Below the pieces are notes generated by a model, which worked only from the letters and a program-made list of their open reading frames with translations, was not told the origin of the DNA and did not search any database. Below are positions 1,294 to 60,974 of a DNA stretch of 64,000 bases, one piece after another. Every line of letters starts with the position of its first letter. The stretch's first letter is position 1. This stretch comes from Marasmius tenuissimus (lineage: Eukaryota; Basidiomycota; Agaricomycetes; Agaricales; Marasmiaceae). A program made the translations under genes and the position numbers. The stretch spans positions 124,001-188,000 of the forward strand of contig JAQOTA010000020.1 in assembly GCA_029532415.1 (NCBI GenBank), read 5' to 3'.

Positions 1294-2158
1294 TCATGAT
1301 TTCTCCCCGACGCCCACGGCTTTCTCGTTCCATCCGTACCCGAAGTCCTTGTTATCATCGTAAACCTGGTTCGTCTCGGGCTTTGGAGCAATTGTCGTAT
1401 CTTGTCGGTATTTCTCAAGACTCGTAGCCGTGTCTCGCGCTCGCCGCTGACGGCGAAGGAATAGAATCACGAGAATCAATAGAAGGAGTCCAACGACGCC
1501 ACCTAAAACGCCACCGATGATTTCTCCTTTGTGATCGTTGCCGGTTGTTACCCTATTCAAATAATAATTGGTTAGGTTTCCTTCACCTTGACAGGGAAAG
1601 ACAAGGTAGCTCACGGTGTTCCAGTTGCTGAGGGTGAAGGAGGTTCACTGGTGCCTGAAGTACGGACAGTTGAGAAGGTGATTGAGGAAGATCCTGGACT
1701 GTGCTGCAGAGTACCGGTCGTAATTGGTTGAGGCGCAGTTGTGTAGTTCCTTGAGGTTGCTGACGTGAAGACTGGCGGAGAGGTCTCACTATGCAGCCCA
1801 CTCCGCTCGATCCGCGCCGAGGCTTCACAATGTGCTGTTCTAGGTTTCTGACTCAACGTTCCTGCGTCAAAGACTTACGAAAAAAGACTTACTCTCTAGC
1901 TAGGCCCTCCAACCTGACAGTATTTCGAGCAGTGTTGCCTGTAGCACCCGATCTTGCGATTGCCTGGTCATTGCATGACGCCTGAGAGTCACTCAAGGCT
2001 ACATTAGGGGAATGATCCAGGGGATCCCTTGGGGTTACACCAAACGGTTGAGAAGGATAATTCACCCAGTTGCTGGCGTCCTGCAAAATGGCGCCTCGGA
2101 CGGAAACCAAAGAGAGCAATGATGCCGTACTTTGAAAAGCGAACAGCGGTTTCAGCAT
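1294..2158 (-). CDS. S0: short-form single-pass membrane protein
   Basis: Exons 1893-2158, 1615-1839 and 1294-1552 give 249 codons before the stop. The product begins with a hydrophobic leader (MLKPLFAFQSTASLLSLVS...), then an extracellular part and a Ser/Thr/Pro-rich linker. One membrane helix follows (IIGGVLGGVVGLLLLILVI, about residues 170-190), then a basic LRRQRR stop-transfer and a short cytosolic tail ending DFGYGWNEKAVGVGEKS. S2 and S3 share the helix, the basic stretch and the GYGWNEK tail. The outer domain is shorter and more diverged than in S3. It lies 495 bp upstream of L0 in gene order, the same pairing as L1/S1, L2/S2 and L4/S3. Function unknown; a cell-surface sensor is an inference from topology. 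Confidence 0.75.
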
Positions 2159-40685: not shown

Positions 40686-42245
40686 TCAGTCAACTAAAGC
40701 CTCTGGTACCTCTCCTTCCCCACCATACGCCCACTCAGACTCCCGAAGACCCTTAACCCTCTCGATTCTCTCCTGCAACTCCTCTCTCGTTCCATCTCTT
40801 TCTTTGTCGGTTCCATCCGTCGTGATAAACCTCCTTTGCAACTCTATTACCTTCTCTTCAATCTGCATCTGCCGATCCGTTCTTGCACGAGAGGCCACCC
40901 TCAAGTGAGCGGATGACGGTGGAGAATTGAGTGAGACTGGTGTGAGCGGCGGTATAGGTATATGAGGAGCCTCTGCTGAAGAAACGGCGCTCATACTCGA
41001 GATACCAGAGACGGAGAGAGATCGTTTCCCCCCACTGGAACGCGAAGAAACTGAGGTAGAGAGCGATCTTCTATCGTCAAATTGATATCCTTCAAAGTCC
41101 TCCTGAAGAGGCGTGGTTGACGAGGTGGGGTCAAGCTCCAAATGTTTACCTTCCTCGTCTCCTGCGAGTAGTATCTCCCTCTTTGGGCTTTGGTTGCTAA
41201 TATTTGTTTCGACCGTGTTTAGGACCATCATGTCCCGGCAAAATCCCTCTGGGTGATCAGTTCTCCCACGTCGGCGACATTGACGGCGAAGTAGTAAAAA
41301 GAGAATAACCACTGACGCGAGGAAGATGACTCCCCCAATGACACTTCCAATAATGATTGGTTTGGGATCTTTGTCTTGGGCTGGCTGACGGCCTTGTTTC
41401 TCGGTGGGAGAAGGCGAAGCCGGGCCCGCCGGTGCAGGTTTAGACGATTGGACTACAAACGAGCTTTGGAGGCATACAATGAGTAAAGTTCTAAAAGCGG
41501 GCAAAGAAAAGCTCAGTCATGTCAGACTTGCAGAATTTCCTGCCGTTGAGCTGACCAGTGATCCAGCGGATGAAGAGGCAGATGAGGTCTCATGGCTGTA
41601 ATAGCAAAGTTAGAACCACCTACTGAAACAAAGGAGCATGATCACCTACCTTCCTGCGAGTGCCGAGTGGAGTAGGGAGGAAACCCTGTTTATGAGTTCC
41701 GTTACGAAGGAATTGGTTGTGAATGGTAAATTTATATCACGATCCCTGCACACGAGTAAAATTGAACCAAAATTGAGGGACAAGCATTGGTTTACGCACT
41801 GCAGGTAAACACTAGTCACGATAGCCGCGGGTTCTTCTAGGCTGGTTTGCTATTCATTATCCAGTAATCATTAGTTCTTAAGGGAAACATTACCCTGAAG
41901 CTGGGATCATAGAAGCCATGTCCCCTACTACGACGCTGTCTGCCCCTGGAATGCCCATGAATTGAGTAGTCAACGCCCGCGTCAAGGTTATTCGTGAGTT
42001 GGATCTGAGACGTGAGTGCTCAAGATTGAATGGCTTGCTAAACTGATAGCTCTGGCTGGCAGTGTTAAGCTCCGGGACAGCGGTGTGCAGGAGTAACGTA
42101 GCCGAGGGCTCGATTAGAGCCCCTGCTCGAGCTTGGAGCCATAAACAAACAAGGGGTAACAACAGATAACTGAAGGGAACAATATTGAGTCAATATATGT
42201 CAGCTGGTTGAATAAGGAGACATACATGTTAGCTCTGCGATTCAT
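40686..42245 (-). CDS. L1: long-form single-pass membrane protein
   Basis: Exons 42226-42245, 41894-42169, 41800-41841, 41650-41745, 41528-41595 and 40686-41452 give 422 residues. The leader is MNRRANIYLLLPLVCLWLQA; its first intron falls inside it. The outer domain (about residues 24-99) is followed by Ser/Thr-rich exons. The membrane helix IIIGSVIGGVIFLASVVILF starts near residue 200, then RRQCRRRGR. The cytosolic tail of about 200 residues starts EGFCRDMMVL. It is Ser-rich and ends with ARTDRQMQIEEKVIELQRRF and RIEKVKGLRESEWAYGGEGE. Tail motifs and exon plan are shared with L2-L4. Type I topology and surface location are inferred from the leader and the basic stop-transfer. No catalytic domain is visible; it could be a sensor or adaptor. 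Confidence 0.82.
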
Positions 42246-42324
42246 TGTCACCAGAAGCAAATAGAGAACAAGAAACAGCTTAAGGGAAAAGAAGGAAGGT
42301 CGCCGTCCTCTCCAAAAGTGAGTA

Positions 42325-42332
42325 CATATAGC
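42325..42332 (-). promoter_or_regulatory. CATATAGC core-promoter-like element of L1
   Basis: Plus-strand CATATAGC lies 80 bp before the L1 start. The flanking ...TTTTGCTGTAC is shared with the L0 promoter. Confidence 0.55.
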
Positions 42333-42744
42333 TATTTTGCTGTACGGCCTACTCAGATCCAGCACCGGTTGACTCCACCGAAAGCGGTCTCCTTTGTCCC
42401 AGCAAAACGACTTGATCGACAGGAGATCAGAATGCCCAACTCCCGAGATATCCTGTGTGATACTAACATTCGTCTTACAGTAGTTCCCGCAGTGGCGTCT
42501 CACGAGGTCAAAGTAAAAATGTATATGGTAGGATCGCTGAGAACATAAAACCTGAACTCACAGGTAAAGCCCTCGTGGAGCAACATATGAAATGTGTCCC
42601 ACGCATATTGCTCTGAGTCGTCTGTACCACTGGACGTCCAGCATTCTCCTCTCATACTCATACAACCCGCTCAGTGCTCCATCCATGATCTCCACTGGGA
42701 AGCGGTACCTCGGGAGCACCCCCACTGGGAGATCTCGATCAGAA

Positions 42745-43000
42745 TCATGATTTCTCGCCGACAGTCACAGCAGCGTCCCATCCATATTCAGAGCCCTGTA
42801 TTCTCATGAACCCGAGTTGTTTCGGTTCTCGGGATAATCGTCGTATCCTCTCTGAAATGTTTCCTGTGCTCGTCATCGACGGCGGAGGAATACGGTCACG
42901 CAGGGGAGAATCACGACTCCGAAGAACACTGTCAGTGGATATCACTGGAGACTGGAGAGTGGGGCTCAGAAAAATCACCAATGGAAAAAGGCGGTACAAC
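42745..43000 (-). pseudogene. S1: remnant of a short-form membrane gene
   Basis: The tail is recognisable across two frames: REDTTIIPRTETTRVHEN matches YRQDTTIAPKPETNQVYDD of S0, and EYGWDAAVTVGEKS matches GYGWNEKAVGVGEKS. The membrane-helix region is degraded by stops and changes, and a frameshift separates the two tail pieces. From the S stop to the GGCCGGCC block is about 380 bp here but about 1550 bp in the S2 unit. The 5' exons are therefore probably deleted. It keeps the 500-bp spacing to L1. Confidence 0.7.
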
Positions 43001-45520
43001 TATCAAAGCCGAAAAGCTGGAGGACCTTTGATGAGGCGGCACGAGATAAGCGATGCTTTAGCTCTGACGCACGGGGGATGAGTCACTATGTGATTGATCA
43101 TGACCTGCCCTCAAGGATGTCGGGCCGGCCGGAACCTCCAAAAGCTGGGCTCCGAGATCTGGACCCTTTCTATCCTCTTCGCCTCCATCATCTCTTTTCG
43201 AAGTCGTCACTATTCCTTCCTTCAAGAAGTCAATTCCTTGGTGTGAGAGCACCTGGATGTTGTTTGATTCATATTTCTGAACCTGATCCTGGCAAGTCAT
43301 GACAGGGCTGAGGGGAGAGGTTTGGAGGGACATTCGTCACTTGGTACGCTCTTGTTTCCCGTTTTTTTATGATACTCTTCAATAACAACCCTCTTGAACT
43401 CTCGCGTTTCATCTGCTCATGTTGCTGATCCTGTTCAAGTCAGACGTCAAGGCCTTCAAGATTGAGTATTACTGAGGACACGCAACCTCCACCTTCTACC
43501 AGTTCATTCCTTACTATCTGGCCTTCCGTTGTTTGTTCCTCTTACGCATTATTTGGAAGAATACGACACGTTCCTCATGACGTATCATACGCTGCGTCGT
43601 TTCTAGTGTAATCACCTCGCGTTGTCGTACGACTCAAACCACCTTTGACATGACACCATCGTGAATGGCATCCGCGAGCATTCATTCATCCCGAATCTCG
43701 TCATTCGTTCTTTCTCTCCCTCATCCCCGGGCGTCCAGGTCATACTCAGTAGGTCCTTCTCGAGCCTCAGCCTCCATGACGCCGTCGATTCGCTGGGAAA
43801 GTCGTTATTGGAAGACCTGAACCCGAGTCTTTGACCCTTTGCTTCCTATTCATCACTTGACCTTTGTTAGTGCCTCATCGAACGCTGCCGCGTCTTTTGT
43901 TGGGTTGAACTCGTTACGTATCTTTATGGGATCTCTCTATTCCTTCTTTTGTTCGGGGTTTCCTTCCATTGCCTTTTTGGCGCTTTACCAACGGTATCGC
44001 GAGGCATCGGTATTGAGAGGATTATTCCCAAGCATTCTCTACTTTTATTCATGATTGGTATTCATGCACATGTTCAATTCCCTTGATCCTTGATCCCAAG
44101 TAACCTAACGGTGCAGTAGCCTCTCGTCGGGTCATATTCCGCCCTCTATCTTCCATCTGCCATCCTCATTTCTAGATGTTCTAGGAAGGGGCTTCAGCTT
44201 GTTACGCAGAACGGACCTTCTTTCACCTACAATATAGCTATTTTTCTCTGGGCCCTTTTGATTGGCGCCGCTGCCTCCTTTTGATAACACAGCCTCGAGT
44301 TCTCACTGCTGCGTTGACTCCAGCCAGGTTTTGTCGTGCAAGTACGAACGCGTGGCGATCCATTCTTATTTTTACCTACGGCGTGGCAATCTACTTGGAG
44401 GTGCTGAGTGCTGAGCGGTAATTACTTCCCGTCTGTTGCTCGTACAACCGCCTTCTTACTGCCTATTGTTCACATCGTGGTGCACACGTCAATCGGAAAA
44501 TTGTCTCTCTATGACGGCAAATGAATTTTAGGCACTCGCCCCCTGCCCATTCTGCTCAGCTAAGCTCATTCTCTCCGCCTTCTCGCCCTTTATGATATCT
44601 GAATTGTCAGCGCGTATCGCCTCTCGGGAATACGGACGAGTTTTTGGACTACATCCATTCCCAGCCCATTGCTTCAAATGGAGCTTAGTCAGTTTACTGC
44701 CGGGGAAGAACTGAATCGTGCTGATTTATCCTTTCAGATTCCTGCTAGGCCACTGTGACCGTCGAATTATAACAGGTCATCATCCGTGATGGATGAAACG
44801 ACGGGAATACCGCGTGTAGCTAAAGTTGGACGTCACTCATACAAGAGTATAACTTTTCCGCAGCCTTCCCCCATCCGTTGTTATTCTTCATCTTCGAAAC
44901 CAAGCCGGTGTTGCTTTGCGGCGTACCATATCACGACAAGAAGTATAGACCTCGATGGTTGATTATTATGGATCGTGTATGATGTGCATACCAGTGTATT
45001 GTTACCCGCTCCTCCTACATTTTGACATCAAGAATCTACACACTATCGACGACTGTTCCTACGATGCGTAGATAAAGACACATACCGTACCGTACTACAT
45101 CTTTTAGTAAACAGACAACAGTCACCGTCGCGAGGATCTTCAATGAAATTGAGTTGATAAGAGTACTAAGAATTGGAAACTACCGTCTCCTTGGAGTGGT
45201 TCCCTTTCGAATGCTCGACTACAGCTCGATGCTGCTTAAAGTGCCCTCGGCAACGTGCCGAGACGTTCTTTCGCCCCCTCTTCTACGTCACGAACGCTGA
45301 CATCTTTCTGCGAATCTCCAGCTGTACTGGTTGATTTTGATTGTGTTTGAACTTGAGCGTAACTAGCCAACTCCTCCTTGTCGGTGAACAATACGCAGAA
45401 GGAATGCAAAAGGGTGGGCGAGCTCTGACGCTCTTCTGAGTCCCAGACCTCACCACTCCCCTAATCAGGAATGTTCAAGCCTGCGCCAAATTGAATTGAT
45501 CATCGGTCACGAGCACAAGA
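43001..45520. other. Long gene-poor, pyrimidine-rich spacer
   Basis: The block at 43095-43350 repeats those at 2.7, 53.8 and 61.7 kb (CTGCCCTCAAG, then CGGGCCGGCCGG at 43121-43132). Further words around 43730-43820 (CATGACGCCGTCGATTCGCTGGG) resemble 54380-54410. No coding sequence is supported. Confidence 0.5.
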
Positions 45521-45523
45521 CAG

Positions 45524-46807
45524 ATGCCGATAAATGAAGATAAAGGAAACCAGGGAAATGGGTTCTTTGTACGTGCCACTCGAAAATCGGGATATAAATA
45601 CGAGTCCTGTAAGTCCGATAACCCAAACATCTCCCCCCCCAACCCGCTTTCTTGTTGTACCTCCCAACTATCGACTCAACCCTCGTATCAGCCAAGCTGT
45701 CATCCAACAACGGAAACACGGGTAATTAAGAAAACCCGAATAAGAGGCAGAGGACTGGATGAAACTCTGACTCACGCGACAGGCAAAGAACAAGTCGGCG
45801 AGAAAGACAGGGTGAGTTGCCTGCAAAGTAGTACACCAATGTGATCTAACTGGGTGACAGAGCCTACCTCAGAAGAACGATGCGATCTCTACGCACAATT
45901 CAGATCCGCCCCAAGGCCAACATCTAACGAAGAGTCCTCCGCCGAACGAAATGGCTATTCCAAAGCCCAATCTCAGAGCCGCAAACTATACCCCCTCACA
46001 TGCGAATGCCTACCCGTATGATAAAATAACAAAAGTAACACAGACCCCTCCTGTACAGAAGCCTGCTGGCTTCTCCATCCCGTTCACCGACCAATCTTAC
46101 CCATGCCCGTATATTTCAACGAAGGAACTTATACGCAACCTCGCAGACCTCAAACGCTCGCTGATCAACAAAGATTAGGCCAACCTGGTTGCTTTTGTAC
46201 CTCACGGTGGTGGACCGAGGTGATTTGAGTCCAAAGGCTTTGAGAAAGCTCCAGTCGCTCTCCTTGACTGGTTTTGGGGTGCAGACTTTCCGGATATCAA
46301 AGGCAACCCCCATCTCCCCGTCCATCAGAAAGGAGATCATGCGTTCGGAAACCCGTTCACCATCATCCTCGAAGGAGTGTCTACTCCATGAATTGCCTTC
46401 TTTCTCGACCAATGCGTGATCCCCTGGGCAACAAAGGGAGCCATGTTCTATGCCCACTCCCTCAACCCATCCAATACATGAAAGAAGTGTTGGCGCGCAT
46501 CATAGAGAAGATCTCCGACAACGAGGCGGTTCAGACTGTAGCTCGCGTCATCCAACAGAGCCGACCGACCGATGTGGAGTCTGATGTGTTAGTGAGCAAT
46601 CCTGGTTGTAAGCACACAGAACAACTCCCATTTGAATACAGTGATCTCGTATGCCCCCTCTCCCTCCATCGCAGTCACAAATTCGAGGACAAAGACGTTC
46701 TTCGTGGGGTTTTTGTGGAGGGAAGCTGGGGAAAATATGAGGGCTACATACTACATAGCTTAATTGCGCATTTAACTATAACAATGGAGGTCCATGGCGA
46801 AGGATAG
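45524..46807 (+). pseudogene. Decayed hypothetical gene with at least three in-frame stops
   Basis: After an exon junction at about 45862 one frame runs SLPQKNDAISTHNSD...FSIPFTDQSYPCPYI, then continues through a TAG at 46176-46178 into ANLVAFVPHGGGPR. It passes a TGA into FESKGFEKAPVALLDWFWGA and AFGNPFTIILEGVSTP, then another TGA. A shifted frame carries on (YMKEVLARIIEKISDNE...). The reading between stops is protein-like and no GT-AG intron removes the stops. It is a broken member of an unidentified family with an N-terminal Pro-rich part. Confidence 0.6.
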
Positions 46808-46905
46808 AGTGTGTATATGAATTGTTGAGACCAAGGGGAAACTCAAGGATTTTTGATCCATTAAAATCCCTGATGACATGCAGTACAATATCTTCATCAA
46901 CCGAA

Positions 46906-48316
46906 TCAGAAGTCCTGCTGCGAGCCATTGGGGGAGGTCGAACCTGTGTTACAGTAGCCTCCGTAATCATCCCAATTCTCTTCTTTCCGTGTATTCGCCC
47001 GAACAATCAAAAGAGTTGGAGCAATTCCCTGGTATCAATTGTTAGCTCCGATCTCCGTGAATAAAACCTCGAGGCGTACTGCAACTTGAACGAGCACCGA
47101 GTGTATCACTGTAAAATTGGGTAGCTTTGCGAGGGCGCAAGCAATGAGCACGATCCACACGATGAGGTAGAGTGAACAGGATTCGACCCTAATACGAGAT
47201 GATCAGGAATTGTGAAAATACTCATGTAACCCATCTCGGTTTCCCGAGCACTTACAGAAGCACTGTGACGGTCCAAAGTCGTCCTCGCGCGCTCGTTACT
47301 TCATAACGGTGTGCAATAGATCTTAGAATCTTACGAACTAGAGAACACCGTTTGTGAGCCACGTGCCAATTGGAGGTCCGAACAAACCTACCGATAACGC
47401 TCGTAAAAAACACATTGATGAAAAGATGAACCGAGATAAAGATGATACCCAGGTTCCACAACAATCCTACTTTCTTCTTTACGTCAGGGAGGCTGGAATC
47501 CGACAAAGAACCCAAGGGTGAATGCGAAAACTGTATCTGACTAGCGAAGATCGCAGACGCTCCGGCTGCGACTGTGGAATAGTCAGACATTTGTTGATCA
47601 CTTGAGGGAACTATCCATACCATCGAAAATGAAGCATGTTGTGATTGAGATTATTGCATATCCTCTGTTTTGCCATCCGCAGATAACAAAGCACCGGAAA
47701 ACCTATAGCACTGGTGAGATCCATTCCAGAACGAAAGGCCCGAACGATTACTGACCAAGATACTATCCACAATAAGACTATTGCTCAAAGGTCAGTCAAA
47801 CCGTAAAGCGAGCTCATGCAAGACCCCACGTCATTGTCATCAAGATCCCGAAAATGAAATTTCTGTAGATGGTGCGTCAGTAAAATCATATCTGAATCTA
47901 TTGTTTACCTCGAGCCTCGAGGGACTTACTGCATAATCAATTGGGAGAACAACATTCTGTGGGAACATTGCGTTCCCGAAGCAAGACAAAATGCGTGTTT
48001 CGCATCAAAAACTCCACATACCAGGCTCAGCGGGACGCTGACCGAACCAAGGATAAAGAGGGTGACGAGCACATATCGAAAAAATCGATCTCCGGCATCA
48101 CTTTCTCGCTCCCGTCGCCGCCTCTTCAGCACTACAAGTCCAATCCAGAATAGCAAGACATTGAAACCATAGAGGAAGAGGTGAATCTGGATTACATGAA
48201 CACCAGATGACCCGGAATCTCTGTTCACTCACCGAGGTGACAACAAATGGGAGCACAACGAGAAATTTGAATTCCCTTTCAGCAACTTGAGTGGCGAAGG
48301 CGTCTGTCGCTGACAT
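46906..48316 (-). CDS. Multi-pass (about seven-helix) membrane protein
   Basis: Nine exons (48233-48316, 47930-48186, 47830-47862, 47756-47783, 47702-47621, 47571-47392, 47337-47256, 47188-47080, 47028-46906, listed 5' to 3') give 325 residues. Hydrophobic segments include FKFLVVLPFVVTS, LYGFNVLLFWIGLVVL, RYVLVTLFILGSVSVPLSL, IFGILMTMTNSLIVDSIL, FVICGWQNRGYAIISITTCF, LWNLGIIFISVHLFINVFF and LVESCSLYLIVWIVLIACAL. It ends GIAPTLLIVRANTRKEE. ES-x-LY and QVAxIAPTLxIVR are hallmarks of a large basidiomycete membrane family of unknown role. Its loop VCGVFDAKHAFCLASGTQC has three Cys. It sits inside the L/S array but is unrelated in sequence. Whether it acts as a receptor or transporter is unknown. 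Confidence 0.8.
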
Positions 48317-50294
48317 GATGAGACACGGACCAACCTCCTAGAGCAAATGCTGCGTTTTAATATGGGCCAGCATTCATTGTTTGGACCGGTCAGTGCACAC
48401 TGATACGCCACCGATCAAATTTGACCCGTAATGATGGTTGAACGTTGAACGCTCACAAAATTCGAGTAGTTAGAGGCATTGAAGCCTCCGAAATTTGATC
48501 TTCCCAATGGCGTGCTGTGTGTATTTCCAGACATTCATGGTGGCTTTACTCTTGGCTACGAGTGCTGACTTTTCTCACACTGCCGGCGTGGCCCGCAAAA
48601 TGTAGTACCTTCTCCACACTGATCGGGATCAGGTGTCCGGCTTGTTTGCCGCGTACCGGCCAAGGCGGAGGTCTTGTTGATGCTTACTCGCCTCTAACCG
48701 GTACAACTCCTACCGTTCCAATCGCACAGTGAAATGTGGTGGCAGGGTCTTGTCTTCTGTTTGAGGATGAAGGTAAGCTTTAGATCTCTCGATGTCAAAT
48801 TTGATCTGATTGCGAAGAAAGCTCGCTATTGCTTTTTACAGCCCTTTGGGAAATGGATGGCGTCCCCCGCGAGTTGTCGGTATATAGAAATTAAAGGTTG
48901 GGAAAAGGATAGCAAGATCGGCGTCTTCGGGAGATGTTTCGGCAACTCTTCGGGAGGGGTCGAGACGGGCTTGAGGGTGGATCAAAGTGGATTTGAAAAT
49001 GTTTACTTGAGGAGTTTGAGGAGGTTCAAGGTGGTTTAGAAGAGGTTTTGGTAGGTGGATACTAAATTTAGAGTGGTGTCGCCTCCACCCACTTCTTCGA
49101 CCACGCCGCCCCCTTCCTGAACTTATTTTCCATTCAACTTGTCCCTCGTGGTTGTGCTATCCGCTCGTTCCGAGTACCGTGCAAGTCACCCTTCAATCTC
49201 ACTTGCCCTCTTTCCAGTTTGTCCGTCTCTTCGAGTCCAAAAGTCCGCTATACAAAGGGACAAACATCCTCTCAGCTCGTTCCTTCCATTGTCTGGTCGC
49301 ACTCGCTACTCTTAACGAGTTGCCGGATACTGTAAGTGGCCGACAGTTTAGGTCACGGAACCAACACTTCCGGTGGCAACACTGTCCTTTTCCCCGCCCA
49401 TTCACCGTCGATAACCTTCGTGAGCTCTCATGAGCCTCGCCCGGTGTTCGAATATAGACTGAATCACGTATCAGGTCTCACCAACACGAGAAGAAGTCAA
49501 ACCAACTACCTCCCATCGGCCGAAAACAGAGCCAATAATTCTAACCCTTCCCATTATGGCCGCTCTAAAACTAGGCCCATCGTAGGTGAAAGTGAAGGTC
49601 GATATCGTTCGTCCAAGGGACGCGTCAGCAATGGCTTTGATTTCGTATAAGGCAGAGTTTACATACTCGTTGCATAGCGTTGGTCGAACATAGATGGAAA
49701 AACGGCCGTCTTTCTCGGCGGAAGGGCTTATTTATGCATTGGCTACTCTGGATTGGGACTGGACGTACTAGGATCGAGAGACGAGACTCTATAGCTCGAG
49801 ATGGGCTTTAGTACGAGCCAAACAGCGTCTCTCTCGAGTTTCCTTTGCCCTGTAGGTACAATGATCACGAACGCCTTCTGTGAACTGGAGGTGAATCCAC
49901 ACTCCTTCAGAGGGCGAAGCTAGCATATACATAGATCTCTAACAATCCTTTGTTCAGTTCGTCTACTACACTTGCATCACCCAAGATAGACTTATGCTTC
50001 ACCTATGCTGCTGCATTCTTAAGCGACACATTTAGTCTGCGATATGGACAAACTAGATGTGAGTATTCATACGTACCTTATTCCATGACAATGTTATTTT
50101 AAGTTCTAAATTGTCCATTCGAAGGGAAACGCATGGACATAAGCGGAGATCCTCGGAAGGAAAGGTTGCACGAGCGTGAGTCACGTCGCTTCCGCGTGTA
50201 AGTACCATCATTGACATCACGATCTTCTTTCATCACTTCCCACATGGATTCTACCTCCACAGTTTCGTCCAATCGGTCCACCGACAGAATTCAG
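48317..50294. other. Stretch without a supported gene
   Basis: Plus-strand frames 48734-49039 (101 residues) and 49336-49650 are open but show no known domain. Text around 49420-49570 has a weak resemblance to the leader region of the T5orf172 gene near 10.9-11.0 kb, too weak to annotate. Confidence 0.3.
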
Positions 50295-51774
50295 TCATTC
50301 AACCAAAACCTCTGGCATCTCTCCTTTCCCACCATACGCCCACTCAGACTCCCGAAGATCCTTGACCTTCTCAATTCTCTCTTGCAACTCCGCCTTCCTT
50401 CTATTCTCCTCGGTTCGACTCGCCGTGATAAACCTCCCCTGCAGCTCTATTATTTTCTGCTCGATCTGCATCTGCCGATCCGTCCTTGCCCGAGATGGTT
50501 CTCGCAAGGGAGTTGGCGACCATCGGGAGCTGATTGACACCGGTATGAGCGACGTTACAAAGGTATCTGACTCCCCGTCGGAGGACGCTGCGCTTGTGCT
50601 GGAGATACCAGAGGTAGCAAGCGATTGTTTGCTTGAGCTTTCAAAGGAGTAAATCGAGGTGAATGATGAGGTTTCGTCGTCTTCTTCGTCCTCTCCGAAA
50701 TATCCTCTTAGCGGCGTAGTTGATGAGACGGTGTCGTGTCTACTGTGCTTGGCCACCAATTTCTTGTCCTCCCTCTTTGGGATTCTGGTGCCAAAGTTTG
50801 TTCTGGTTGCTCTTGAAACCATCATATCCCGGTGGAATCCCTCTGGGTGATCTGTTCTACCACGTCGTCGACAATGACGGAGCAGTAGCAAGATGGACAC
50901 AACCGCCGACGCGAGGAAGACAACTCCCCCGATGACACTACCAATAATGATTGCCTTCGAGCTATTTCCGTTAGGCGTCTGGGGATTCGTGAAAGAAGGG
51001 CTTGAAAGACACTGGGTATAAGTATGGGTGTGGTCCAAAAAGACGATAAGAAACGGGCTACCTACGTTGGGGAAACCATTGGATGTTGAATGTTGGTTTC
51101 GGGGCTGGAAATGGCGGATTAAGCACTATATCGATATAGAATTTGGCTGGAAGCGGGACCTACGTGTTGCTCGCGCTGGGGGTCGAACCTGCGACAGGTC
51201 CTACCGTTATTGTGGGAGTAAACGTAGTGAGCGCCTCATTCGGCCTGATGTCCTTCACTTCAATAATCGAAAACAATGAGCTAGTTTGATCGGCACCCAC
51301 TGGTTGTCGGTTTTTGTTAAAAAAGCCACGAGCTGGACCTCGCTGGTAGTTCAATATGGTTAATGGAGCTTCGAGGCCAAGCGGCAAATATATTTACCCT
51401 GTGGCTTTCGCCATGATACTTATTACACCGAATTCCTTTGGATTCTCGTCATCTGTCAACGTCAAGGTGGGTTGTGCACTGAGGAGCTGTGTAAAGGTTG
51501 TTTTCGAGGTCTGTCCCAAATATATCAACCCAAAGTCGAATGGTTCCGTGTCCCCCGTCCGGTTCCAGGCGACAATAACGCCTTGACAGACTGTCATTTG
51601 TGTAGGAAATGTCGCATTATCCGTATCAAGCTGGAGCTGAGCTCCGGCCCTTCGGGATATCAGAGCCACGTAGATATAGAGCGGTAGTACACGACTAGAA
51701 ATGCCAAATGAACTTGTTAGGAACCCTATTGGACAAGAAACGGATACCTACGTGCACGTCATGAATCTCATCAT
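50295..51774 (-). CDS. L2: long-form single-pass membrane protein
   Basis: Exons 51752-51774, 51398-51694, 51297-51342, 51164-51252, 51066-51104 and 50295-51000 give 399 residues. The leader MMRFMTCTRVLPLYIYVALI is followed by an outer domain (AQLQLDTDNATFPTQM, VAWNRTGDTEPFDFGLIYLG) and Ser/Thr exons. The helix IIIGSVIGGVVFLASAVVSI precedes RHCRRRGRTDHPEGFHRDMM and a tail ending ARTDRQMQIEQKIIELQGRF and RESEWAYGGKGE. The tail also has an acidic EDEEDDE patch. It is close to L1 in helix and tail but diverged outside, as expected if the outside faces changing ligands (inference). The 46-nt third exon matches L0 in size. Confidence 0.83.
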
Positions 51775-51846
51775 CTTCAAAGCGAGAGCATTCCAGAGTT
51801 TTACGGGAAAGAGAAGATAGACATTCGCCGTCGAAACGAGTCCATC

Positions 51847-51854
51847 CATATAGC
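51847..51854 (-). promoter_or_regulatory. CATATAGC core-promoter-like element of L2
   Basis: It lies 73 bp before the L2 start, in the context CCATATAGCCATCTCGTCGT, very close to the L4 context. Confidence 0.6.
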
Positions 51855-52224
51855 CATCTCGTCGTAAGTTATGTTGTCATCATAACCGATATCTAGAACT
51901 GATTGATTCAATCTCCATCGGCGGTACGCTCGTTGGTGGCAAACAATTTGATTGATCAAGAAAAGCTGTGTGACCTGTGATACCAACACTCGTTGGACAG
52001 AAATGGTGGCTCGCGGAGTCCAATTGTGAACGTTCGCGATCGGGAACATGAGAATATCAGACCTGGAATCAATTTTGAAGTAACATAGGTAATAATTTAC
52101 ACGCTTGTGGTTTTTTATCACGTCCAAACTCTTCGAATGTCGAGTGCTCCCCTTCAGACTTACTCTCTGCTCAATTCATCAAAATCATTTGTACCTCAAA
52201 AGCCCCCTCGCCGAGAGATCTCAA

Positions 52225-53145
52225 TCATAATCCTGATTTCTCCTCGGCGCCCACAGATTTCTCGTTCCACCCATACCCAAAGGCCTTGTTATCCTCAGAT
52301 TTCCGATTCGTCTCAGGCTGTGTGGCAACCATTGGACTCTGAGCTGGCTCTTGCGCTCGGCGGCGGCGGAGGAATAAGAGAACCAGAAGTAACAGGAGGA
52401 GTGCAACGACTCCACCTAAAACACCTCCGACAATTTCTCCTTTATGATCGTTGTGAATCGCGCTCGCCGTCACCGGTTGAGTTTGGGAGGCGACAGTTGT
52501 CATTACACTTATGCCAATTAGTAAGACTTTCTTCGCGATGATGTGTGAAGACAGAACAACTCACATTGTATCGGTTGCTATCCATGTCAGAGGGCCATCA
52601 CGAGTCGGCGTGACGGTAGTCGTTGCGGGAATTACGATAGATGTTGGGGCTGGTAAGACGACTAGTGGTATCCTCCGATCGCTATAAATCGCATTTAGTC
52701 GTTTCTTCGAGATGGTAAATACGAAAACTGACTCAATAATAGGCCCATCTGGTCCTGGAGGCCCCCATTGGAACATTCTAGAGGACCTTACTAAATGAGC
52801 CTGAATTGAAAAGCCTGCAAAACTTACCCGGTAGCTGTGACTTTAAGTGTAAAAGTGTTGCCGATTTGGTCTCGTTTGTACGGTAATACAAGTGTCTGGA
52901 CAGGAGACTCTTGAGTGTCATACAACGTGACGTTACCCATGTACGGTTGAAAACCCCAGGTCGCGTTGTATGGTTGAGAGGCTATTATTGTCAAAAGTTC
53001 CCCCAGCTTGTGGTCATCTTCCTCTTCGTCATCGGGTGGAATAGGAGAACAGAGGAAATCTAGAGGTCTTTAACCATCGAAAGACAGTTTCAGTATCGAG
53101 TGCACAAGATATTCACGACAAAACATACATTACTGTGTCACCCAT
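52225..53145 (-). CDS. S2: short-form single-pass membrane protein
   Basis: Exons 53129-53145, 52828-53067, 52733-52777, 52565-52681 and 52225-52507 give 233 residues. The outer domain ends NTFTLKVTATG like S3 (STFTLTATATG). The linker holds PLVVLPAPTS, the helix IVGGVLGGVVALLLLLLVLL, then LRRRRAQ. The short tail is AFGYGWNEKSVGAEEKSGL. Unlike S3 it has an acidic N-terminal stretch (PPDDEEEDDHK) and no clear signal peptide, so secretion of this copy is doubtful or the true start is elsewhere. The intron ending AAG is unusual but matches the same junction in S3. Confidence 0.75.
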
Positions 53146-55597
53146 GTCGAAAGTCTAACACTGAAGACGTAGAAAGGTGAATGAGGGGTAGCTTGCTCGA
53201 GGGGGCGTCGTAGTATCAGAGTAAGACGATGTGCTCAAAAGATAGTAATTGGTCGTAATTCCTCCCCACAGCCTTGGCCTGGGTAGCTAGATGATGAATT
53301 ACATCCGCATTTGCACCAGTCTGTGCTGTGGCCATGTCATATTTGTGATGAAATATGAGACTTCAGAGCTGGAACATACAATCAGCTGTGTGCATGATCT
53401 ACTCACCGCTTTCCACCCAAAACCCACTATTCACTCCGTGATAATCACCAACTTAGCCTCCTCCAGCAGATTTCAAGACCCAAAATTGAATCTTTACGAA
53501 ACGAGTACCAATATTCGATCGGTCGTTTCCAGCCCGAGGCGGCCTGAGTGGATAGATACCCTCAGGTTCGGAGTTCGAATATCGCCTCCAAAGCTCGAGA
53601 TTGGGGAGCGAGGCGAACGAAAATGCGCGCCAGCAAGATACAAAGGCAGTACAACTAGCACAGCCGAAAAGCAGGAAAATCTTGATGAGATAGATAGCAC
53701 GGGATACTTGCATAGTACTTGTGATTGGCTGACGGATGGGGGAGGTAATCTATCGACCTACCCTCAAGTACCGGCCGGCCGGCAAACCCTCGAAAGCTGA
53801 GCTCCGAGATCAACGCGTCTCTCTCCCTTCCATCATCTCTGTATCCCTTCTGATTCTTTGCTCGACTTATGCAATCCTAAATCACACTTTATCGACATGA
53901 TATCGCTGGCACGCAAATTACAAGGTAGAACGAAGGGATTTGAAGTGATATGGCATGGGCCTCTTGGTGCGCTCTTGCTTCTCGTTGTTCATCATACTCT
54001 TCCATGTCAACTCTTTATATTTCTTGCTTTTCATCTAGTTATGTTGCTGATTCTCCTCTCATTTTCCGGCGAGTCGGACGTCAAGACATTTAAGATCTGG
54101 AATTACTGGAGAACACGCACCTGAACCCTCGACCTGTTCGTTTCCTTCAATTTTGGGCCTTATTTTCATTGTTGATGCTTGCAGTTGCTGTGCTCTGCTA
54201 CATCCCTTGTGACGTGCCACGCCTTGCGTCGTCTTTCGTTTCATTCTGCCTTTAAAGCGACGCTGTCGCAACTGCCATCCTCGAGCATTCGTTCGGCTTT
54301 ACATCTCGTTTGTTTTTATTCTCCCTCATCAAGGTTAGCTCGGGCCAGCCCTCGCTGGGTCTGACTGGACCCTTGGCTATCATGAAGTCGTCAGTTTGCT
54401 GGGCAAGGGCATAGCGGTCACTGTTGGAGACCTGGATCCGGACTGTCGGCCCATGCATCCCTCACGAGTTTGACTCTCGTTTTCTGTGTCATGGCTCAGC
54501 CTATTATAATCCCTTTTGACCCTGCTGCCTCCCTCTTGGCGTCTCGCTCGTCGCGTTTTTAATATGGATCTCTTCACTTTCTTCTTGCGTTTAACTGACC
54601 CTTCAACAACGGTAATGTAATTCGTTGTCATCGAGAAGATTACACTCCTCCGTTCAGCATTCATTTTCGCCTTCCATCCCGAATAACCTAGTGGTAGAAC
54701 ATCCCATCGCCGGGTTCCACAGGACCCTCGGTGCTCAGGACGGCGCTGAGTTCATCATCGTTATCACTCCGTGATGTCTCGGAGCTAGTTGGCGCTGATA
54801 AGGAGAGGGAAACGCGCTTTTACTTGATATGTTGTTTCTTCTCGGACTCCTCTATGCCTTTTTGTCCTCGTCAACGTCTGGATCTCTCCGCCCTGATTAC
54901 GCCCGATATCGTATACGAGCTTGACCTTGCGTTTTGTTTTCTGCTCAACGATCTCGTGGGCTATATACTCACTCACGCACCCTTCGGAGGTGCCAAGTAG
55001 CGTATGCTGTCCGTCTGCTACCCTTGAAATCTCCCTATATCTCTGCTTTCCCGCATCTCAATGTTAGAATGCCATCCCTTAGTTGGCGAGTGTATGCTAG
55101 GCACTGCCCTGAACACTCAGCCATATCTCTGTGATACCTTGCGTTGAGCTCTGGGCTCTCCTTTTCGCCATATCTATTGCGGCCGTTTTTTCTGTGAGAT
55201 CCGGACTGTCAATTCTTGTACAACCTGTGACTATCATCACAAGTTGTTGATTAGACGCACCTCTATGTCTGTAATTCATAGGACTGGAATACACGGAGCA
55301 AATGTTACCTGCTAGCGTCCTTACTAGGCTTATAACCGGTCCTTCGATGATGATGGCAAGCACGGATTGAATGTTCTTGCCTGAGTCTCAAAGGAAATCA
55401 GAACTTCTGATCCCACATATCCGACCATTTCACCTCATGATATGATAGTAGCTGATCATGGTTGCATGCTCAACAGCGTTCAATTTAGGGGGTATAGACG
55501 GTTGGTACGACATGTGGATACAAGTCTCCACGTAGCGTTCTTGTGATCTCGGAGGTTCTCTTCGATACCATCAGTCTGACCTAGCGAGAGATCCCCG
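53146..55597. other. Gene-poor spacer with array-linked repeat block
   Basis: 53745-53990 matches the block at 2.7 kb: CTACCCTCAAG, CCGGCCGGCCGG, GGTAGAACGAAGGGATT and GATATGGCATGGG. The rest is pyrimidine-rich on the plus strand without supported genes. Similar words to the 43-45 kb spacer recur near 54380-54410. Confidence 0.55.
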
Positions 55598-57068
55598 TCA
55601 ATCAAGCAAAGCAGACGGCACCTCTCCTTCCCCACCATATGCCCACTCGGATTCTCGAAGCTCCTTTGCCTTCTCGATCCTCTCTTTCAACTCTGCTCTT
55701 GTTCGTCCCTTTTCTTCCCCAGATCCACTGGCCGTGATATATCGCCCCTGCAACTCGATAATTTTTTGCTCGATTTGCATTTGCCGATCTGTTCTCGCTC
55801 GAGACGGTGTTGTCGATTGAGATACTGACGGAAGTTGGTTGATCGACACCGGTATAAGCGGGAGTATAGACGTGTCTGACGCCTTTTCGGATGAGGAAGC
55901 GCTTGTACAGGAGACAGCAGAGGCACTGGGTGTTTGTGTGCCCTGAGTGATACAGAGGTCTGTTGAGATTGAGACCGAGCTTCTGTCGTCTTGGTATCTT
56001 CCAAAATCTTCTCGTGGTCCCTCTCTTTCCTTTCGCCGACGTAGGGCCAGAACGGCACCCAAAATTGATAGCAGCAGAAACACGACCCCGCCAAGTACGC
56101 TTCCTATGATGATTGACCTTCGGTCTTGGTCTTGTGCTGCTGCTGGCGAGGACGAGGCTGTCCCCTCATACTGCGGGTTCGTTGATGGAGTTGGATCAGT
56201 GATTCGAGCCAAACCAGAGGTTGAAGAGTCGCTACGAGTACTAAATCAGAGGTTTCTGTACTTGGTCTGTATGACAGTGATAGGTTGGACTCACCCTATA
56301 GCTGCTGTAGAGGAAAGTTGTGTTGTCATTGAGGTTCTTGGGGCTAAACTTGAAAGATGCATGTTTTGGGAATTTGTTCTGATAAAGAAGCTAGATAAAG
56401 CGACCTGTTACGGAGGATGGATTAGTAAAACAACGCACGTTGAAGTCGTCAAGTTTCCCCTCGAATGGAAATCGATAGGAGAAGTCATCGCAACCACCGT
56501 GGTGTAGAATATAGTTTCTTCAGTAGTTGATATTTCACTTTCAATGTCAAGGATCAAGTCATAACCGCAATCCTGAAGCGTAATCTGAGGACTCACCCAG
56601 GATTTCTCACAGCCACAAACTCCAATGTTCTGGAAATGATTTAGTTTCTTACCCCAAGTGGGCTACTGAAAGGTCTTACCCAGGTGCCATTGCCAAAAAT
56701 GTCACTGTATCATTTGCATTTCCACCTGTCATTCCATTGTATGGGAGACCCGCCGCCAGTGTTGAAGTGGCAGGCGGCTCCAATCCTGGGTCTATCAACC
56801 TGATGTCGAATACCTCGTTCAAGTTATCCGCTACCCAAACCCAGCCTACGGTGACCAGTTGGGAAACAATGATGGTTGGAGGCAACGGAATATCAGAATT
56901 GATGGAAAAGGTTTGTCCTTGGACCCCCCAAAAGAAGAGGTATGAACAAAGAAAGATCGTCAGGATATAACTAACAAAAAATAAAGAATAGTGTCAGAAT
57001 GGTTATTAAGTTAAGAGAGAGAGAGAGAGGGAGAGAGAGAGAGTTGCATACGTGACTCCTCGACGCAT
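55598..57068 (-). CDS. L3: long-form single-pass membrane protein
   Basis: Exons 57052-57068, 56680-56970, 56597-56629, 56439-56537, 56295-56390 and 55598-56240 give 392 residues. The leader MRRGVTYILTIFLCSYLFFW is followed by an outer domain (QTFSINSDIPLPPTIIVSQ, VGWVWVADNLNEVFDIRL). The linker is long and Ser/Thr-rich; the helix is IIIGSVLGGVVFLLLSILGA. The tail has ARTDRQMQIEQKIIELQGRY and RIEKAKELRESEWAYGGEGE but lacks the RDMMV motif seen in L1, L2 and L4 (REDFGRYQDD instead). Intron 1 holds a long CT-rich tract. It has no S partner on its 5' side; the next gene upstream is L4. Confidence 0.82.
57010..57046. repeat. GA/CT microsatellite in L3 intron 1
   Basis: (GA)n with short interruptions on the plus strand, CT-rich in gene orientation, just after the 5' splice site. 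It lies within the intron that splits the signal peptide. Confidence 0.9.
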
Positions 57069-57140
57069 GATCAAAGCTGACGGAGGGCTCGTATAAATCC
57101 TGGGGTAAAGAAAGGAATGACATCGTTTTCAACGAAGGCT

Positions 57141-57148
57141 CATATATA
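57141..57148 (-). promoter_or_regulatory. CATATATA core-promoter-like element of L3
   Basis: It sits 73 bp before the L3 start, at the same place as CATATAGC in L2 and L4. Confidence 0.5.
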
Positions 57149-57974
57149 TTTCTTACGTGCGCCTTCCTCACAACTCACATCCGGGGATGATTTTGTTACT
57201 AGGACTACCAGTCCTAGTAGCAGTCTTCTTCATCTCAGCGAGGTATCCGAACCGAGATCAACTCATTGGGCAAACGAGATGATGTGTATGTTACCAGCAT
57301 CTCTTGGATATTACCTCGAGGTAATGTCTCGCCGTCAAAGTATCTTTGAAAGATTTTTGATGCGGAAGGATGAATTGGACGCAGGATCAAGTCGGACTTG
57401 TCATGATGCAGTATGTATAGGGAACATTTGACACACGCATCGTGCTGTAGGTATTTCAATTGAGTAAACTTCCACCATTCACATCTCATAAACAGCCGCG
57501 TCTTTCCTCGTCTCCAGTACATCCACGAGGTTTTCGTGTTATTGTGTCTAACCATACAGAGTCGCTCGAGTCCGTCTCAAGACAATGTGAAGATTTTCTA
57601 TGTGCTGCCGTGTCTTTCTATCCATAACTAAAAGCCTTTTTACCGTCGTCTACCCTATTCATTCACCGTTTTGTTCGTATCACACAGATTCCATTTGGCG
57701 AGAATCATGAAATCGACACAGGCTCGATGTTGTACCTTCTCGGCTTGATAGTTCCGTGGGAATCATTGACTCATTCTGATCTGCAGTGCGGTACTCTCGC
57801 TGGAGGTACAAAGTGATCCTCTTGTTCGGTCTGCTGTGCTGGCACCGTATCTTGCCGCTCTCCCTCAATGAATGCCCAAAAAATGGTTAGAAGATCTATA
57901 GTTACAAATGTCTGTGCAGTGTTCGTAGAGTTGAGCCTCAGTCCAATTGGATTCGATCCAGAGAAAAGTCATGA

Positions 57975-59334
57975 TCAATCAATCAAGATATCCGGTACCT
58001 GTCCCTCCCCGCCAAACGCCCATTCAGATTCTCGAAGATCTTTCACCTTCTCGATTCTATCTTTCAACTCGGACCTAGTTCGATTCTTTTCCTCCCCAGT
58101 TCCAATCGCCGTAATAAACATGCCTTGCAGCTCGATTATCTTCTGCTCAATCTGCATTTCTCGATCCGTTCTTGCTCGAGAAGGTGATCTCAGGTGAAAT
58201 GGCGACAGGGGTGGGGTAAGCGATACGAGCGGCAGTATAGGGATCCCTGATGTCCCTTGGGAGGAAGTCGTACTGAAGGAGACAGCTGAGGCAGCCTGTG
58301 TTCGTGTTGCTGTGCTCGTAGGGGAGTACGTTGACATTGAAACCGAACTTCTGTTATTTTGGTCTCCTCCAAAATCATCTTGGAGGGGCGTATTCGATGA
58401 GTTGGCGTCCATATTTCTATTTCCCTCTTGTGCTTTCTCCCTTCTTGGTTTACCGGCTTTTGCCGTTTTTAAGACCATCATATCCCGTCTGAATCCTTCG
58501 CACGGCTGTTTTCTTGCCCTTCGGCGATGTAGGAAGACACCTAATAGCACTAGTAATAGAATTACAACTCCGCCCGTAACGCTTCCAATGATTATGGATC
58601 TGTGGTTTTGTATCCTAGATGCTCCCTCGTCCGAGGTGCTCGATGTAGTATCCGTGGCTGAACTCACAGGAGTTGCAATTTCCGTCCGAGAACTCGATCT
58701 GGGACTAGTACATGGAGGGACCGGATTGGAGATGCGTAGTAAAATCACTCACAAAAATGCCGAGGATCCGGTCGGAGCAGCTGTTTGTACAACCACCAAC
58801 GTGCTGAACATAGTGGTATGAGAATGTGACGAATCCCTTTGAAGAAATCAGAGAAGTGTCAAATACAATCCTGGAGTCTGAGTGTGACTCAAGTACCCAC
58901 TCGACAGCCAAAAAGGTTGCAGTTCTGGCAATGGTTAGTCATCACGTTAAGCGAACTAAACCCAGAACGTCTTACCCGGGCTTTGGCGCTGAAATTATGA
59001 CTGTACCCTTTGCCGTTCCAGGACTTGGTGTCGTAGTAGGAATGCCTGCTGTAATCGTGAAAGGATCCAATCCCGGGTACATCAACTTGATGGCGAAGAT
59101 TTCATCACGAAGCCCCTGCCAGATCCAGCTCACGTTAACCGGCTGCGAAACGCTGATTTTTGTGGGGAATGAAGTGCTAGGATCGATAGAAAAGTTCGCT
59201 CCTTGAGCTTCCCCAATTAAGAGAAATGAACAAAAGAAGGAGAGGGTATGACTAGGGGGAAATAAGAACAATCTCATCAACGTATGTCTTCCATGCAAGA
59301 AGGGAAGGGAAGCATACTACGTAAACCGACACAT
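57975..59334 (-). CDS. L4: long-form single-pass membrane protein
   Basis: Exons 59321-59334, 58976-59251, 58901-58924, 58753-58836 and 57975-58704 give 375 residues. The leader MCRFTHTLSFFCSFLLIGEA leads to ANFSIDPSTSFPTKISVSQP and VSWIWQGLRDEIFAIKLMYP. A linker holds TTMFSTLVVVQTAAPTGSSA. The helix IIIGSVTGGVVILLLVLLGV is followed by HRRRARKQPCEGFRRDMMVL. The tail ends ARTDREMQIEQKIIELQGMF and RESEWAFGGEGQ. The third exon is short and uses a GTGGGT donor, the only choice that keeps frame. It pairs with S3 496 bp upstream. Confidence 0.82.
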
Positions 59335-59406
59335 CTTCACGGCGAAGAAAGGACTCGCGCAGATCCTGGGGATGAAAAGGGAAGGACGTCGTCCCCAGCA
59401 AAAGTC

Positions 59407-59414
59407 CATATAGC
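59407..59414 (-). promoter_or_regulatory. CATATAGC core-promoter-like element of L4
   Basis: It lies 73 bp before the L4 start in the context CCATATAGCCGTTTCGTCGT, nearly the same as at L2. Confidence 0.6.
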
Positions 59415-59829
59415 CGTTTCGTCGTGCATCTTTCTCACAGCCCGCATCCAAGGATGATTGATGTTGTTACCAGTAACTACCAATGGCAATTTCCTTCAAT
59501 TGAATGAACTATCTGGATGCAATAAGCTCATTAGGCAAGCGAGACGATGTGTATGATATCAGCAACCGGGACAGTTGCGTCGAGACAATCTCTCACTAAG
59601 TCAAAGCAGAAACTGATCTTGATGTGGGAAGATGGGATCATTGAACCTCAAATTAAACCGAATCTATCATAACGGGGTATAAGAAACACCTCGCGTGCGC
59701 ACCCTGCTGTAACGAATCTCAAGAAGGATCCTTTCAGCCATTCCCTATGATACTACACCCACAAACCACTCTGGACTCAACATCCCTTCTCGTACAGACG
59801 AACCCCCCTGTTACCATCACAATCCACCA

Positions 59830-60974
59830 TCAAGATTTCCTACCCATAATTTTCTCGTTCCATCCATACCCAAAGTCCTCGTTATCATCGTAGAACCGAT
59901 CCGTCTCAATCCTTCTGACAACCATCAGATTCTGTCGGTACTCAGTTGGACTTGTAACCGCTTCCGGGTTGCGACGACGACGAAGATAGAGGAGGGTTAA
60001 GATCAATAGAATGAGTGATAGGACACCGCCTACGACGCCTCCAATGATGGGTCCTTTGTGATCTTTCCTTTCTGTAGGCTCTGGTGTCGGCGATGCCTGA
60101 CTAGTAGGAGCCACGGAGTTGGGAGAGAAAGAGGCGAGGTACGACTCGGTGCTCGCCTGTGAGCCGCTGGAAAGTACAGAGCTTGCTCCAGCGACGTTCT
60201 GTGCGTCGCTAGTTTACCATCTAGTTAGAGTTTCCTCACGTCTACATAGGAAATGGAGGACTTACTTCGAGGTCACTGTCATATCCGCTGTTGAAGATGG
60301 CGGGAAAAGCTCGTTAGGTGTTTCCGCGGGTGTGGCAGGAGTGGTACCAGGATCTAGAGCCGTTGGAGTGGGGGAAGGCATTATGAAGGCACTTGGCCTG
60401 GAACTTTGAGTTGGCGTCGGCCGCGGTAGAACGACTAGCTTTGATCTTCCCGGGGGACTATAGATAGTTCTTAGTGCTTGTTGTAAACGACTAAAGTTGG
60501 CCCTTACAGAGCAGGGTTTCCGTCCAGCATCCATAAAAAGGTTCTAGAAAATAAGATTCGTTGAGAACGAATTTACAACTCTTTAACGTCGGGCTCACCC
60601 GGTAGCTGTCGCCGTGAGGGTAAATGTGCTATGTGTCCCGTCCGAGTCAGCCGGTATTGTGAGAGTCTGCACAATAGACGTTCGAGCGCTGTCAATGGCC
60701 AGGGATACTTGGTGCTCTCCTCTGACCCAATTTGAAGTGGAGCCATTCGGATTAAACCGACTCAAATTTGAACGATCCCAGGTTACGGTGAATGCCTGTG
60801 AGGCTATTACTGTTTGAGGAAGGTTTGGCAAGAGGTTGTTATTTTGTCCCAAAGTAGATCCAATTGGAGCCCAAATAAGATATTGGACAACTCTTGATGA
60901 CATGGAACAGTGTCTTCAGTATAGAATATTTGGACCATTCACCGACGAGACACGTACAGTATCCTCCGACGCAT
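59830..60974 (-). CDS. S3: short-form single-pass membrane protein
   Basis: Exons 60958-60974, 60599-60913, 60508-60543, 60266-60457 and 59830-60208 give 312 residues. The N-terminus MRRRILHCSMSSRVVQYLIW is moderately hydrophobic. The outer domain contains LPQTVIASQAFTVTWDRSNL and ends STFTLTATATG, close in form to Ser/Thr-rich fungal wall-anchored beta domains. Next come a Pro/Thr-rich linker (VVLPRPTPTQSS), the helix GPIIGGVVGGVLSLILLILT and LRRRRN. The tail is FYDDNEDFGYGWNEKIMGRKS. The tail also has QNLMVVRR, recalling the RDMMV motif of L genes and linking the two subfamilies. Confidence 0.83.

Follow-up and report, generated by a model that had tools for sequence, protein, structure and literature searches.

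A tandem array of genes for long-tailed (L) and short-tailed (S) single-pass membrane proteins in Marasmius tenuissimus has about an even chance of being part of a modular surface receptor or adhesion family in Marasmius. The array lies in a 64,000-nucleotide window, i.e., positions 124,001-188,000 of contig 11 (C11; other contigs are numbered likewise) in an assembly of 71 Mb and 70 contigs. As read from genomic exons, outer domains of this family occur in front of at least four tail types, termed L, S, T2 (coiled-coil-like with a PPxY motif) and T3 (with a PPxY motif), and one gene appears to have exchanged its outer domain at an exon boundary. M. tenuissimus, a basidiomycete, is named among the causes of thread blight of cacao in Ghana (PMC8581569).

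The family genes contain introns, so the list of open reading frames (ORFs) displays their exons only. In the modelled genes, exon 1 is confined to the initial codons (M-R-R-x type), intron 1 interrupts the signal peptide, exon 2 encodes most of the outer domain and the last exon encodes the transmembrane (TM) segment and the tail. Hand-spliced models are 100% identical to the annotated proteins for S3 (306 versus 305 aa; PM082_009591) and for an L gene on C10 (416 versus 414 aa; PM082_009488). Sequence and prediction together give a signal peptide, an outer domain of ~90 residues, a linker, one TM helix and a cytosolic tail. The linker is predicted to be disordered and is Ser/Thr-rich, with 23-52% Ser plus Thr in 11 L and 2 S proteins (the script mis-set the TM boundary of P0004, affecting its linker value and tail length). 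The L tails have 147-209 aa (10 of 11 proteins, P0004 excepted) and end in a conserved helical hairpin, whereas the tails of the two S proteins have 50 and 54 aa and carry the motif GYGWNEK; a membrane-proximal R-[RQ]-D-M-M-V-like motif is common to both. L3 is without the RDMMV...TPL part, of which the other ten proteins of alignment A1 carry at least some, and keeps the hairpin. The outer domain is predicted to be an immunoglobulin (Ig)-like beta-sandwich: the L3 model has eight strands, 10-residue means of the predicted local distance difference test (pLDDT) of 65-91 and Ig-like matches; the S3 model is weak (best Foldseek E 0.013). This prediction agrees with an earlier note on this DNA, which had described beta-rich outer domains on a multicopy single-pass family.

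A new observation, from profile comparison, is that the outer domains of L and S form two homologous classes. With leave-one-out profiles, all 17 L and all 8 S domains score higher with their own class. Standing outside that set are L1, L5, S4 and the S genes at C11:72, C11:43 and C10:6445 kb; four of these six were scored, L1 and L5 higher with the L profile and S4 and the C11:72 kb gene, weakly, higher with the S profile. The L1 outer domain is strongly diverged (17.7 bits with the L-class profile) and the S4 outer exon hardly resembles those of the other S genes (S profile, 7.2 bits). The classes are related to each other (hhalign probability 95.7%, E 3.8e-9), and the four S domains used in a tree form one group (98/93 support).

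Also new is where else the L-class domain occurs: 7 genes carry it with one further tail type, 3 with another, and a single gene with an S tail. One L outer domain as query finds 29 genome places, and the downstream sequence, read by eye, encodes L tails at 17 of them (two degenerate), T2 at 7, T3 at 3 and S at 1, with C10:6650 kb (E 0.005) left without tail assignment. Six T2 genes lie at C10:6335-6380 kb and one on C39; one of the seven has a stop in its outer match. The six C10 genes (C10:6334001-6380900; L072, L074-L077) have RAELLAMRHRLAMLEA-like coiled-coil tails with PP[DE]Y, and the three T3 genes, very similar to one another, lie at C30:518-546 kb (518201-522800 and 542501-547500; L078, L071), with tails ending in DPPPTYRTLVHK/Q. 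A PPxY motif (PPDY, PPEY or PPTY) stands near the end of all 10 T2/T3 tail pieces read and was found in none of the 11 L and 2 S proteins. Motifs of this kind are ligands of WW domains, such as those of Nedd4/Rsp5 ligases. Upstream of one T3 gene, a TM exon and a PPAYDTL piece (L071:656-976 and 1305-1676) maybe belong to another surface gene.

Judged by its DNA matches, the T2 gene on C39 is a mosaic. Its positions 883-1264, which begin ahead of the start and run through the end of exon 2, match the L-tail gene C10e (71% over 386 bp) and C10f (69% over 313 bp), versus 64-67% over 128-193 bp for T2 genes. From 1266 onward the match is to T2 DNA (76% over 66 bp), and for the tail, four T2 loci match (69-89% over 38-113 bp) and no L gene does. 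Because the matches switch from L to T2 at 1264/1266, the break would fall where the outer-domain exon ends, a point at which exchange would keep both halves working. In the tree, the C39 outer domain is the sister of that of C10e (98/93 support). The S-tail gene at C10:6453 kb likewise has an L-class outer domain (86.7 versus 9.9 bits), which is 56% identical in protein to that of the L gene C10b, whose outer exon lies ~4 kb upstream; at the DNA level, the S-tail gene matches C10b in its front part (86% over 71 bp) and S tails in its rear part (70-74% over 91-117 bp).

Variability and constraint are unevenly distributed along the proteins. Paralogues are on average 33% identical in amino acids over the outer exon (136 pairs), against 37% over the mid-tail and 66% over the C-terminal hairpin (171 pairs each). 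The corresponding ratios of nonsynonymous to synonymous differences (pN/pS) are 0.68, 0.65 and 0.29, with synonymous differences so near saturation (mean pS 0.62-0.69) that pairwise dN/dS, the ratio of the corresponding rates, is uninformative among paralogues. The mid-tail, though intracellular, is thus as variable as the outside. The 17 outer exons were drawn from stop-free frames, so their freedom from stops carries no information. Protein-level comparison with presumed orthologues of Marasmius sp. AFHP31 gives, for P0019/P0010, 47% (outer), 29% (linker), 84% (mid-tail) and 84% (hairpin), and for P0015/P0017, 54, 37, 81 and 90%; a third pair, P0012/P0013, is partial, covering only 31 residues of the outer domain (48%), with linker and hairpin at 64 and 79%. 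The earlier proposal that the outsides differ far more than the tails stands for the conserved part of the tails. The hairpin pN/pS over 171 pairs, with the 84-90% identity in the two full-length orthologue pairs, demonstrates at the sequence level purifying selection on the hairpin across many copies, and the outside is, by the same substitution data, weakly constrained.

The two most similar duplicate units, on C11 at 72 and 125 kb, permit estimates of dN/dS, which is 0.91 for the S outer domain, 0.63 for the S TM segment and tail, 0.52 for the L outer domain and 0.27 for the L hairpin; these values rest on small counts, and one of the two L copies is a pseudogene. The diversification proposed in the earlier note finds no support, in the sense of positive selection, in these ratios, which are all below 1; given also the near-saturated pS of the paralogues, positive selection on the outer domain is not claimed. 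DNA identity between C11:68789-74055 and C11:121773-128000 is 94% upstream of S, 72% in the L outer exon and 84% in the hairpin, and exon 2 of S4 is 91% identical to the second unit at C11:72 kb. This gradient may reflect local gene conversion.

The family is spread over several contigs. The L-tail query matches 42 genome places, which, with neighbouring pieces merged by eye and matches of E < 1e-9 kept, give 28 L loci (13 on C11, 5 on C10, 7 on C30, 2 on C70 and 1 on C23). Chance is excluded for the family: 23 further places match the L-tail query at E 2e-61 to 1e-29, and eight match the S-tail query at E 5e-24 to 3e-15. Long- and short-tailed members adjoin on C11, C10 and C30. The exact GYGWNEK pattern occurs at 10 genome places, nine of which are followed on the same strand, after 1.2-2.3 kb, by a match to the L tail; the lone copy without a downstream L, at C30:557 kb, has a stop in its outer exon. 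Three more S genes, with changed or degenerate tails, lie on C10. A clear S stands upstream of 12 of the 28 L loci, and four others have weak or remnant traces (L1, C23, C30:643 kb and C30:652 kb); S-pattern and S-tail searches of the genome found no S at the remaining 12. Four long-tail sequences that match the L tail more distantly (E 4e-6 to 9e-8) cluster at C66:16067-23230. Clustered weak single-pass TM matches of the S query at C5:2.49-2.66 Mb and C27:138-631 kb possibly represent other stalked surface-protein families. A telomere-like pattern was found once in the assembly, on C64, too seldom to bear on a subtelomeric location.

The pair as the unit of duplication, as put forward from the window alone, thus describes only part of the family, in which 12 of the 28 L loci have a clear S and four have traces; L3 has lost its S. 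From S stop to L start, the window pairs measure 500 (S1 remnant-L1), 451 (S2-L2), 496 (S3-L4) and 495 bp (S4-L5), exactly as first reported. In eight pairs measured across the genome, the S stop lies 509, 575, 580, 616, 618, 628, 875 and 1627 bp from the L outer exon; the distance is typical, not fixed. The suggestion that L and S work together receives no clear support. Distances among S tails and among L tails correlate over 10 pairs (Mantel r 0.37, p 0.039), but both track the contig, and with contig controlled the partial r is 0.23 (p 0.16); L/S co-evolution is therefore not claimed. That set left out the C10_6457 and C10_6461 pairs, whose S tails are degenerate, and the weak C23, C30:643 kb and C30:652 kb cases, and took in the readable tail part of the pseudogene L5 and one L tail with a stop written as X. 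In the upstream regions of 19 L genes, some shared 8-mers and 10-mers slightly exceed 50 shuffles, the copies being related, and a TATA-like box lies at a similar distance upstream in 7 of the 19; a promoter common to S and L is not claimed from this.

Within the window (Table 1), S3-L4 is the only clearly intact pair. The earlier inventory of four L genes, two intact S genes and a remnant on one strand holds for L1-L4, S3 and the S1 remnant, but not securely for S2: no signal-peptide exon was identified by eye, so its intactness is uncertain, and S2 is absent from the two S proteins returned by the protein database search. The S1 remnant matches S2 (42756-42705, E 1.6e-6) and S4 (42762-42729, E 1.9e-6) in blastn, and the GYGWNEK motif that the note had assigned to S tails is present in S2, S3 and S4, with a vestige of it in the S1 remnant. 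The left-edge pair is present where it had been placed, but its L5 is a pseudogene with an in-frame stop in the outer domain and a frameshift in the tail, which lies outside the window. The stretch upstream of L3 that resembles the S3-L4 intergenic DNA is a possible trace of a lost S-L pair.

Table 1. Family genes and related sequence in the window (window coordinates unless stated)
Feature	Position	Strand	Remarks
L1 (PM082_009583), long-tail, several exons	40686..42245	-	tail conserved
S1 remnant upstream of L1: final 14 codons plus stop of an S tail	42745..42789	-	
L2 (PM082_009587), long-tail	50295..51774	-	annotated start further upstream; L-class outer-exon match 51397-51645
S2, short-tail	52225..53060	-	GYGWNEK tail; S-class outer domain; 5' end approximate
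L3 (PM082_009589), long-tail without S partner	55598..57068	-	outer-exon match 56679-56918; structure predicted
S3-L4-intergenic-like sequence upstream of L3	57156..57299 (144 bp)	-	69% over 149 columns
L4 (PM082_009590), long-tail	57975..59334	-	annotated start further upstream; outer-exon match 58975-59202
S3 (PM082_009591), intact short-tail	59830..60974	-	50-residue tail; S-class outer-exon match 60598-60849
S4, short-tail, left-edge pair	1294..2214	-	outer exon open
L5 5' part, left-edge pair	1..799	-	L start 799; tail at C11:123273-123629

Two L protein searches, returning 18 proteins (7992 candidates scored) and 17 proteins (76 candidates), together yield 20 L proteins: nine from this genome, seven from Marasmius sp. 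AFHP31, two from another M. tenuissimus assembly, one from M. fiardii and one without a name. Both searches need words of five residues in common and can overlook distant families. A Pfam scan of 20 window ORFs gave nothing at E 0.001, and the 24 matches returned by the Protein Data Bank were weak (best E 0.0026) and almost all fell on TM or low-complexity parts. No description of the family was found in titles and abstract openings on Marasmius genomes, fungal allorecognition and Kre9/Ig-like families, of which the full texts may hold one.

The organization recalls two known systems. Vertebrate paired receptors (KIR, FcR/XFL; PMC2413239) likewise have Ig-like outer domains, gene clusters, long and short tails, outer domains shuffled between membrane and tail types, and birth and death of copies. 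Unlike receptors of the KIR/FcR type, the Marasmius proteins have no immunoreceptor tyrosine-based inhibitory motif (ITIM)-type motif in the 11 L and 2 S tails, the TM run of both S proteins is uncharged (22-24 residues), and no sequence relationship was seen. For the KIR/FcR-type sharing of closely similar outer domains between long- and short-tailed members, the picture is mixed: S has an outer class of its own, a single L/S exchange was seen, and the L-class domain is otherwise shared with the T2 and T3 tails. Dictyostelium TgrB/TgrC are paired Ig-like surface proteins with duplicated and partly decayed copies and recombination in the locus. The Tgr pairs are divergent genes that share a promoter and have TIG/IPT and E-set domains (PMC12324515), whereas in the Marasmius window S and L lie on the same strand, head-to-tail, with S upstream and 451-500 bp between them. 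Since ITIM is absent, the S TM run is uncharged and the pair is head-to-tail, the Marasmius family belongs to neither system.

Several results count against a modular receptor or adhesion family. By the same DNA comparison, the second T2 gene (C10:6335 kb) is no mosaic, its front matching T2 at 66-68% and L at 65.6-66.2%. The tree, which took in six of the seven T2 domains, needs eight label changes for L and five for T2, and shuffles are as low in 30 and 145 of 500, respectively; T3 and S each form one group, and support is weak for 17 of the 29 inner branches. The joins between outer exons and tails are deduced from same-strand exons at normal spacing. No dN/dS exceeds 1 in any comparison, and decaying copies (L5, S1 and stops in several C30 and C10 copies) fit a weakly constrained family as well. 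In the word-limited searches, no L relative outside Marasmius was named among the 20 proteins, and the S relatives were two proteins, both from this genome.

Wall-integrity or wall-building proteins, either Wsc/Mid2-like mucin sensors or Kre9/KNH-like proteins, might instead have multiplied in this lineage and drifted with no recognition role. This is judged somewhat unlikely, and it remains a serious rival because no dN/dS exceeds 1; the outer values of 0.5-0.9 fit relaxed constraint. Kre9_KNH (PF10342), which is of the same general fold class, is the sole family recurring on the outer domain, with weak colinear matches on 3 of 10 fragments (E 0.0039-0.019). Mid2 (PF04478) matches 6 of 26 members of set A2 (best E 0.0048). 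Mid2/Wsc-type wall-stress sensors have a head, a Ser/Thr-rich stalk, one TM helix and a signalling cytosolic tail, an architecture like that of the Marasmius proteins. However, the matches stay below the curated cut-offs: 18.3 bits at best among 10 outer fragments versus 24.6 for Kre9_KNH, and 15.3 bits for L4 versus 23.2 for Mid2, where the match spans the linker and TM segment only. E-values in the 26-member scan are of the same order, with Kre9_KNH in 2 of the 26 at E up to 1 (best 0.0039). The one genome stretch found above the Kre9_KNH cut-off (25.9 bits, C11:806612-806854) lies outside the studied clusters, and an Ig-like fold does not establish membership because many families share it. 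PF10342 proteins are secreted or glycosylphosphatidylinositol (GPI)-anchored wall proteins and are not known to have cytosolic tails like these. Clustered copy turnover and four tail types would also be unexpected for a housekeeping wall sensor.

An unlikely alternative is a decaying, neutrally expanding family in which only some copies are functional and the L/S spacing reflects the common origin of the units. The pseudogene L5, the S1 remnant, L3 without S and stops in several S and L copies all accord with it, as do an S-L co-divergence that is not clear beyond the shared contig and the intergenic DNA of the two closest units, which is at least as well conserved (81% identity) as the L outer exon (72%). 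The constraint on the hairpin argues against it, in both the paralogue ratio of 0.29 and the 84-90% identity of the two orthologue pairs. Very improbable is an allorecognition or nonself system built on L and S as obligate partners, either receptor and ligand or the two halves of a heterodimer, like Dictyostelium TgrB1/TgrC1. Its appeal lies in paired, tandem, Ig-like, single-pass proteins with a variable outside and a conserved inside, in the L genes directly downstream of 9 of 10 exact GYGWNEK genes, and in recombination and partial copies around the pairs that recall the Dictyostelium locus (PMC12324515). Yet 12 of 28 L loci have no S, co-divergence is not clear beyond the contig, S was not found in relatives by the word-limited search and the genes run head-to-tail instead of diverging.

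In the modular receptor or adhesion family that we favour, glycosylated stalks would carry the outer domains out from the cell wall, and these domains would bind variable surface ligands (a wall polysaccharide, a surface protein of another hypha, or a competitor or host molecule). The conserved tails would recruit fixed cytosolic partners, so that the copies would differ in binding and share few outputs. Tandem duplication, the decay of copies and recombination close to the boundary of the outer-domain exon would renew the repertoire. S genes may serve as short-tailed counterparts of L genes, which is the weakest step.

A broader and rather improbable proposal is that mushroom fungi independently evolved a paired-receptor-like repertoire, in which Ig-like domains are exchanged at an exon boundary among long-, short- and PPxY-tailed anchors, giving many specificities with few outputs for recognizing other hyphae, competitors or hosts. 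Somatic incompatibility is described as poorly understood in basidiomycetes, with current models based on ascomycetes (PMC8229728). If the array is instead a drifting wall-protein family, the cacao pathogen would still have a family that no Pfam model matches. If the proposal is true, the family would be a candidate molecular basis of surface nonself recognition in basidiomycetes. As a clustered surface family that combines a predicted Ig-like exterior with a conserved interior and shows signs of recombination between the two, it is a concrete, testable candidate, and would offer a fungal case for comparing modular receptor repertoires built by unrelated lineages.

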